From Amedibacillus dolichus DSM 3991 (lineage in GTDB: Bacteria; Bacillota_I; Bacilli_A; Erysipelotrichales; Erysipelotrichaceae): a DNA stretch of 55,851 nucleotides. Under the pieces are notes generated by a model, which saw only the letters and a program-made list of their open reading frames with translations, was not told the DNA's origin and ran no database searches. Below are positions 22,262 through 33,105 of the stretch, piece after piece. The stretch lies in the NCBI RefSeq assembly GCF_000154285.1, contig NZ_DS483462.1, positions 2,523 through 58,373 on the forward strand, written 5' to 3'. Every line of letters starts with the position of its first letter. Position 1 is the stretch's first letter. The translations under genes and the position numbers were made by a program.

Positions 22262-22500
22262 ATATAAAGCGTGGAAAAGAAATAGTAGGGATATGGACAT
22301 TACAGAGAACCTTTGGTTGGTGGAAAAAGGTATGCGAAGTATTTTGAACACATCTTGGAGTGCTGAGGTGAAAAAAGTAGCCCAGACGTTTTGCATACGT
22401 TACCCTGCTGAGTATTCGTTACTCTTAGAGGCAGTCATTGATTGCGAAATAAGGTGGAACCACGTAAGCTAGCTTTCGTCCTTTAGATGAAAGCTTTTTT
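22262..22500 (+). ncRNA. T-box leader controlling the histidine operon
   Basis: The diagnostic T-box sequence AGGTGGAACCACG is at 22452-22464. It is followed by a terminator hairpin (AGCTTTCGTC-CTTTA-GATGAAAGCT, 22471-22495, then six T); pairing of the T-box bulge with uncharged tRNA would prevent this terminator. A Stem I region precedes it, with AGAGAACC near 22302 and a candidate specifier at GAA-CAC-A (about 22348). CAC is a histidine codon and fits the downstream genes, though the frame of the specifier was judged by eye. Histidine starvation should therefore turn on hisZGDCBHAFIE. Confidence 0.9.
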
Positions 22501-31950: not shown

Positions 31951-31982
31951 AAAAACGCATGAATATAAGCTTCATACGTTTA
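31951..31982 (-). terminator. Terminator of corA
   Basis: On the minus strand AACGTATGAA and TTCATGCGTT form a stem with one mismatch, then TTTTC; it begins at the corA stop codon. Confidence 0.7.
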
Positions 31983-32924
31983 GTGGAACATATCTTTTTT
32001 CTTGAAAATCCAAGTTGCAATCAGCATAAGAACAATAGCGATTAACAACGGGAACCATACAAATGGAAGTGGCAGATCGGGAACATTCATGCCATAAAAA
32101 CCGAAGATGATATTTGGAATGGACATAACGATCGTAATAACTGTCAGTACCTTCATAACAATATTTAAGTTATTGGAAATGACAGAAGCAAAGGCATCCA
32201 TTGTACCGGACAAAATATTGGTGTAGATATTACACATCTCGATTGCCTGATGAATTTCGATCAGCACGTCCTCTAATAAATCCTGATCTTCTTCATAAAG
32301 CTTGATAAGATGACCGCGATTGATACGGTTCATCGTAACCTCATCGGTTTTCAGTGAGGTGGAGAAATATACAAGTGATTTCTCTAAGCCAAGCATTTGA
32401 ATGAGCTCTTTGTTACGCATAGATTGGTGCAATAAATGCTCGGTTCTGGAAGAAATGCGGTCTATTTGGCGTAGATAAATTAAGAAGCGTTGTGAAATAC
32501 GAAGCATCAACAGTAGAAAAAAACGGGTTTTCATTTCGGTATTGATACCGCGTACTCTTCCCTTCGCCATATCCTCAATGCTTAGATTTTCATACAATGA
32601 AATGGTAATGATATAGCCCTTTTTAATAATAACACCCAAAGGAAGCGTTGTATAAAGCAATGTGTTTTCCTGAATGTTTTCTTCTTCCTCGGCACAAGGA
32701 TAATCGACAATGATAAGCGTTTGATTGGTGTCATCATCATAATCAATATGAGAACTTTCTTCTTCGTCTAGTGAGGACTTAACAAATTCCGGCATAATGC
32801 CGATTTTTTCGATTAAAAAGTCAATTTCTTCTGTTGTCGGTGCAACGGCATTGATCCAACAGCCATGCTCCGGTTGATCGATTTTTTTTGTAACATTATC
32901 AAAGGTCTTGTAAAATTCAAGCAT
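31980..32924 (-). CDS. corA: CorA-family magnesium/divalent cation transporter
   Basis: A 314-residue CorA-type channel. The cytoplasmic domain covers about 1-250 and two transmembrane helices the C-terminus; the universally conserved GMN motif is in FGFYGMNVPDLP between them, and the protein ends in a basic FKKKDMFH tail. It imports Mg2+ (some relatives Co2+ or Ni2+). The GGAGG ribosome site overlaps the stop of a small upstream frame in a structured leader, so control at initiation is likely. Confidence 0.92.
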   Translation of the reverse strand: MLEFYKTFDNVTKKIDQPEHGCWINAVAPTTEEIDFLIEKIGIMPEFVKSSLDEEESSHIDYDDDTNQTLIIVDYPCAEEEENIQENTLLYTTLPLGVIIKKGYIITISLYENLSIEDMAKGRVRGINTEMKTRFFLLLMLRISQRFLIYLRQIDRISSRTEHLLHQSMRNKELIQMLGLEKSLVYFSTSLKTDEVTMNRINRGHLIKLYEEDQDLLEDVLIEIHQAIEMCNIYTNILSGTMDAFASVISNNLNIVMKVLTVITIVMSIPNIIFGFYGMNVPDLPLPFVWFPLLIAIVLMLIATWIFKKKDMFH

Positions 32925-32936
32925 GTTTTAACCTCC

Positions 32937-33014
32937 TTAGAACAGGAGAACACCAGCTATGTCTCCTGTGTGATGCGATGGAATGATAGTTTGACCCGCG
33001 GGCTCTGGAGACAT
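32937..33014 (-). CDS. Putative 25-residue leader peptide upstream of corA
   Basis: A frame of 25 codons starts with ATG behind AAGGTG at the right distance, reads MSPEPAGQTI and then IPSHHTGDIAGVLLF, and stops (TAA) within the ribosome site of corA, 12 bases before the corA start. The order promoter, small frame, hairpins, corA recalls leader-peptide control of Mg2+ transporters in enterobacteria, where Pro codons matter; here three Pro codons occur. The sequence is not related to those peptides as far as I can see. Translation is not proved. Confidence 0.45.
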   Translation of the reverse strand: MSPEPAGQTIIPSHHTGDIAGVLLF

Positions 33015-33052
33015 AACAAACACCTTCTTTCTATTGCTCATACATTATAGCA
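32943..33052 (-). promoter_or_regulatory. Structured corA leader with mutually exclusive hairpins and extended -10 promoter
   Basis: The minus strand has TGCTATAAT (extended -10, about 33044-33052). In the leader, TATGTCTCC (about 33007-33015) can pair with GGAGACATA (about 32958-32966), and the same GGAGA can instead pair with TCTCCTGT (about 32943-32950) as ACAGGAGA/TCTCCTGT. The two stems share bases, so only one can form. The second lies directly before the corA ribosome site. I could not match the leader to the M-box, yybP-ykoY or NiCo riboswitch consensus by eye. Confidence 0.55.
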
Positions 33053-33074: not shown

Positions 33075-33105
33075 TAAAAAAGAAGGTTTTTCACCTTCTT
33101 GCCTC
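33075..33105 (-). terminator. Terminator of the DJ-1 family gene
   Basis: Minus strand AAGAAGGT-GAAAA-ACCTTCTT followed by TTTT, just after the stop codon. Confidence 0.85.

Follow-up and report, generated by a model that had tools for sequence, protein, structure and literature searches.

The corA gene of Amedibacillus dolichus DSM 3991 is preceded by an unassigned leader, and the question raised by this locus is how such a leader might set expression of a Mg2+ transporter. The leader lies in a stretch of 55,851 nucleotides that is referred to here as the window. A preliminary description, made from the sequence alone, proposed that a small reading frame and two alternative hairpins allow ribosome position, Mg2+, or both to determine corA expression. 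This proposal was followed up by comparison with relatives, RNA folding, and searches for known RNA classes and transporters.

Organization and distribution of the corA leader

The corA product matches the Pfam family CorA (PF01544) with an E value of 1.7e-49, and the solved structures nearest to it are Mg2+ transport proteins CorA (E 6.6e-24). The gene and the elements that precede it are arranged as follows:

31980..32924, minus strand: corA, 314 aa, CorA-family Mg2+ transporter with a GMN motif
32937..33014, minus strand: leader ORF of 25 codons, MSPEPAGQTIIPSHHTGDIAGVLLF, with ATG at 33014 and TAA at 32939-32937
33021..33030, minus strand: leader ribosome-binding site AAAGAAGGTG, read from the sequence and kept across the leader alignment
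33041..33049, minus strand: extended -10 promoter element TGCTATAAT, assigned by comparison of 32 leaders
33080..33100, minus strand: terminator-like hairpin downstream of the upstream DJ-1/PfpI gene

The TAA stop of the leader ORF adjoins the corA Shine-Dalgarno (SD) sequence GGAGG, which confirms the earlier claim that a 25-codon frame with its own ribosome site ends within the ribosome site of corA (SD at 32932..32937). A 34-aa frame from the ATG at 33041 was considered as the leader and was rejected because this ATG shares sequence with the -10 element and lacks conservation. Each of the 32 leaders examined has the motif TGnTA[T/C/A]AAT, or a close variant, 29-37 nt upstream of its ATG; a sigma-70 scan that requires a -35 hexamer made no call for the element in the window. 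The terminator-like hairpin (33100-33080) parts the corA unit from the upstream DJ-1/PfpI gene. Elsewhere in the window, an ordinary T-box leader (RF00230) is found at 22263-22486 on the plus strand directly upstream of an apparent hisZ-hisG-hisD operon.

CorA homologues were collected from named genomes and a sample of 195 genomes in the family. The element was recognized in 35 distinct corA leaders from Erysipelotrichaceae and Coprobacillaceae, with Longicatena, Traorella, Thomasclavelia, Merdibacter, Massilimicrobiota, Faecalicoccus, Faecalitalea, and Holdemanella among the carriers and with two divergent forms (L064 and L066) among the leaders. In the family sample, a covariance model of the leader matched 26 corA leaders. 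When the class and phylum samples were searched, strong matches were confined to the same order and all were upstream of corA. The covariance search that had been suggested at the outset placed the strong matches solely before corA. Weak matches of 27-33 bits in other families were taken as chance, with no detectable CorA at the loci checked (L157 left out). The corA genes that are more distant within the class mostly are without such a leader, and none precedes the related CorA genes of Acholeplasmatales-like and Coriobacteriaceae genomes. Plasmid copies were looked for and none was found.

Two further observations concern neighboring corA genes. In another genus of the family, a different conserved-looking upstream ORF (MDAGPYHDQYDTNET in L126 and MDSGPYHSSLKEHN in L127) is situated ~110 nt before a divergent corA and likewise starts with an acidic residue. 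In Actinomycetota of the Collinsella/Enorma type (L023, L027, L028, and L033), CorA is 60-65% identical to that of the window and the leader is absent; these CorA proteins are placed among Bacillota sequences in the tree, and gene transfer is possible.

Helices of the leader and the corA Shine-Dalgarno site

Four segments of the leader can pair in three ways:

33007..33017, minus strand: segment A (1), GTTATGTCTCC, over the leader start codons, 11 bp with B
32956..32969, minus strand: segment B (2), ACAGGAGACATAGC, partner of A or C
32942..32949, minus strand: segment C (3), TCTCCTGT, partner of B or of the corA SD
32932..32937, minus strand: segment D (4), AGGAGG, the corA SD site, paired with C in the minimum free energy fold

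The two mutually exclusive hairpins of the preliminary description are both exact and have GGAGA in common: A:B pairs TATGTCTCC with GGAGACATA, with a continuous run of 11 bp (GTTATGTCTCC/GGAGACATAGC), and B:C pairs ACAGGAGA with TCTCCTGT over 8 bp. What that description missed is a third helix, C:D, in which TCTCCT of segment C pairs with the AGGAGG of the corA SD. The three helices form a mutually exclusive series, 1:2, 2:3, and 3:4, with the target SD in segment 4. The minimum free energy fold of the window leader contains A:B and C:D together, which closes the SD. Local energies in the window are -18.9 kcal/mol for A:B, -13.5 kcal/mol for B:C, and -7.6 kcal/mol for C:D. Of the two helices that share segment C, B:C is the more stable in 28 of the 35 leaders. 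As the folding energy of the single window leader is ordinary (z -0.02), the evidence needed to come from relatives. The case is based on cross-species covariation and on SD occlusion compared to shuffles, and not on overall stability.

All three helices covary. Changes on both sides were found at six of the eight pairs of B:C, amounting to 35 double-change cells against 12.9 in shuffles, and A:B produced 12 double-change cells against 2.7. The A:B covariation reaches untranslated bases upstream of the leader ATG. C:D pairing extends beyond the SD, with the fifth position paired in 29 of 35 leaders compared to 17.7 expected by swapping, a figure that is favored somewhat by selection of the register for best pairing. 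When placed on the CorA tree, the pair changes are seen to have arisen repeatedly; one B:C pair, for instance, requires at least eight steps and one A:B pair nine. RNAalifold returned B:C alone from the leader alignment, as exclusive helices cannot be displayed by this program. Covariation, which the preliminary description had named as a check on its two stems, is therefore present for both A:B and B:C.

Accessibility of the corA SD was predicted for 32 leaders. The mean unpaired value of the SD was 0.11 versus 0.41 in leaders with shuffled middles. When segment A was masked, as it would be by a ribosome at codons 4-5, predicted mean SD access rose to 0.41, and in the window leader it increased from 0.01 to 0.50. 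Predicted equilibrium access increased by >0.2 in 18 of 32 leaders and by ~0.2 or less in the remaining 14; the latter thus need a folding order during transcription or larger ribosome footprints.

No match was found with Rfam 15 at the window leader at gathering or relaxed thresholds (best chance hits ≤18 bits) or at the leaders of relatives, and the M-box covariance model (RF00380) detected nothing in the window or its genome. The earlier failure to match the leader by eye to a known Mg2+ riboswitch is borne out by this empty scan. As both stems covary and no Rfam class matches, neither observation that could have spoken against the preliminary description was made, and its proposal that ribosome position, Mg2+, or both may set corA expression is supported at the sequence level.

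The leader peptide and the proposed sensing step

The start of the leader peptide is kept as M-[S/A/T]-P-[E/D]-P-[E/D] across leaders whose frames range from 12 to 31 codons in length. At codons 4-5, which are outside stem A:B, the first and second positions are nearly fixed and the third is free (GAG/GAC/GAT/GAA and CCG/CCC/CCA/CCT), which indicates selection on the amino acids. Within codons 3-7, acidic residues make up 34% and proline 37%, compared to 9% and 2% in the rest of the peptide, and at least one acidic residue is present at these codons in all 35 leaders. Leaders with a single acidic residue, such as that of the window (SPEPA), may be weak destabilizers. In the starts MSLDADGH and MSLDSDGH, proline was lost but the acids were retained, one residue apart. 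The distant leader L066 (MFPDPEYR) retains both the peptide start and the architecture with wholly different nucleotides.

This pattern bears on two other explanations. The leader RNA might be a direct riboswitch that binds Mg2+ or another ion, thereby stabilizing A:B and C:D, with the leader ORF adding coupling only. In favor of this are the nature of the target, a Mg2+ transporter, the conservation of the helices, and a gammaproteobacterial corA motif that has been proposed as a riboswitch candidate (PMC6429828). However, apart from the coding part no unpaired core is conserved, what is conserved outside the stems tracks codon positions, and Rfam is without a match, so that a direct riboswitch appears unlikely. 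Alternatively, scarcity of charged proline (or glutamate) tRNA might stall the leader ribosome and open corA. Most leaders specify proline at codons 3 and 5, and proline codons are used by Salmonella mgtP (PMC8092293), but leaders L048 and L051 have no proline and keep the acidic residues, the regulated gene encodes a cation transporter, and two proline codons in isolation would make a weak sensor. Amino acid attenuation is considered highly improbable, and of less promise than the direct riboswitch.

Instead, the leader is likely a translational attenuator that acts in cis: it would sense translation of its own peptide and thereby probably signal that cytoplasmic Mg2+ is low. Direct sensing of Mg2+ by the leader RNA is not required for this model. 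When the leader start is free of ribosomes, or when translation is complete, A:B and C:D would form and corA would be off. The acidic-proline start is the feature that likely holds or ejects the ribosome: with pausing or drop-off at codons 3-6, the footprint would keep segment A (about -5 to +8) covered while segment B (about +45 to +58) is free. B would then pair with C, the corA SD would open, and corA would be on. A ribosome that moves on would release A and cover B before C; once it terminates, A:B and C:D would be able to reform and close corA. Low Mg2+ is proposed to favor the on state because acidic and proline-containing nascent chains destabilize ribosomes that are short of Mg2+.

Simple translational coupling, in which the leader ORF boosts corA translation by reinitiation or SD opening without any sensing, accords with the location of the leader stop 13-31 nt upstream of the corA start in most leaders. 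Coupling would have no need for A:B, for the conserved acidic-proline start, or for a B:C helix more stable than C:D, and coupling alone is quite improbable as an explanation. For the attenuator, the anatomy is well supported by the comparisons: the start of the peptide is conserved, three exclusive helices covary, the SD is occluded, and the leader is linked to corA. We infer Mg2+ as the signal, the drop-off or pausing of ribosomes, and the footprint logic. The earlier reading is thereby extended by a third helix that hides the SD in the predicted fold, by a conserved acidic-proline start that points to the proposed sensing step, and by a functional precedent in Salmonella mgtQ.

Magnesium uptake and comparison with known systems

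MgtE was sought in the genome that contains the window and none was found. Of the 26 genomes in the family sample that carry the element, 5 had MgtE above the cut-off, compared to 137 of the 169 that lack the element (Fisher p 1e-9, uncorrected for phylogeny). In the genus coded g46, among the genomes listed, four with the element are without MgtE and four without the element possess MgtE. M-boxes were detected in 3 of the 26 element-carrying genomes. The anticorrelation with MgtE is partly phylogenetic, and it fits a role of the leader in Mg2+ physiology: a leader-controlled corA and MgtE seldom occur in the same genome of this family, as if one importer were replacing the other, and the element appears to accompany the use of CorA as a principal Mg2+ importer.

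In Enterobacteria, ribosome destabilization is a described means of sensing Mg2+ (mgtL, PMC11282234; mgtQ, PMC8092293), and a search of an open-access literature collection for a case in Bacillota found none. The design in which the ribosome serves as a Mg2+ gauge had been shown in Salmonella and its relatives only, and probably is encountered here in gut bacteria. We judge the chances to be even that Bacillota independently evolved a ribosome-based Mg2+ sensor in which destabilization at an acidic-proline leader start attenuates the main Mg2+ importer, in replacement of the M-box and MgtE. If this is true, the ribosome as Mg2+ gauge is a general bacterial principle and not an enterobacterial invention. 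Were such a device, with covarying helices and a conserved peptide, to act on an unrelated gene in a second phylum, the principle would be a convergent one. Such a case would also permit a direct test of whether Bacillota ribosomes react to Mg2+ and to acidic-proline nascent chains in the manner of E. coli ribosomes. Moreover, the leader suggests how species without MgtE and the M-box regulate Mg2+ uptake.

Among known systems, the M-box (ykoK, RF00380) controls Mg2+ uptake genes in Bacillota too, but as a direct Mg2+ aptamer without an upstream ORF. Like the device proposed here, attenuators of the ermC type alternate between 1:2/3:4 and 2:3 with the SD in segment 4, and a leader peptide controls the position of the ribosome. 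The ermC system senses macrolide-bound ribosomes, whereas here the target and the peptide point to Mg2+.

The corA motif is known from Gammaproteobacteria only (PMC6429828). The corL-corA leader of E. coli and Salmonella also combines an upstream ORF with exclusive RNA structures before corA and is Mg2+-responsive, but corL is Rho-dependent, has a UUG start in E. coli, and contains few acidic or proline residues (PMC11552253). The EPDP motif of E. coli MgtL causes ribosome drop-off at low Mg2+, which turns the transporter on (PMC11282234). The mgtL-mgtA leaders of E. coli and Salmonella share the acidic-proline peptide start with the present leader, whereas their output is Rho-dependent transcription termination and here it appears to be SD accessibility (PMC11282234). 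The corA leader has no long untranslated stretch, and its SD-pairing helix suggests translational control.

The leader mgtQ of Salmonella (Asp2, Glu5) opens the mgtB SD by an exchange of 1:2/3:4 for 2:3 that has been tested by mutation; the acidic residues are needed for target expression in low Mg2+, and the reported energies are -16.4 kcal/mol for 2:3 and -12.26 kcal/mol for 3:4 (PMC8092293). In attenuators of this type, acidic residues destabilize the ribosome, an effect countered by bL31, and raise target expression in low Mg2+. The corA leader resembles mgtQ-mgtB in its short ORF with early acidic residues, in the alternation of 1:2 and 3:4 with 2:3, in an SD within segment 4, and in a Mg2+ transporter as target. 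In contrast, mgtQ has eight codons, is inside the mgtCBRU operon under PhoP, and targets the P-type transporter MgtB, whereas a 12-31-codon frame here stands directly behind its own promoter in another phylum and targets CorA. Homology to mgtQ and an mgtC-mgtB setting were looked for and not found, and common descent is not claimed because the leader is followed by corA and the unit has a promoter of its own. As sequence, gene, context, and phylum all differ from those of mgtQ, convergence rather than homology is favored, and by analogy the window leader is likely an mgtQ-like device that arose convergently on corA.
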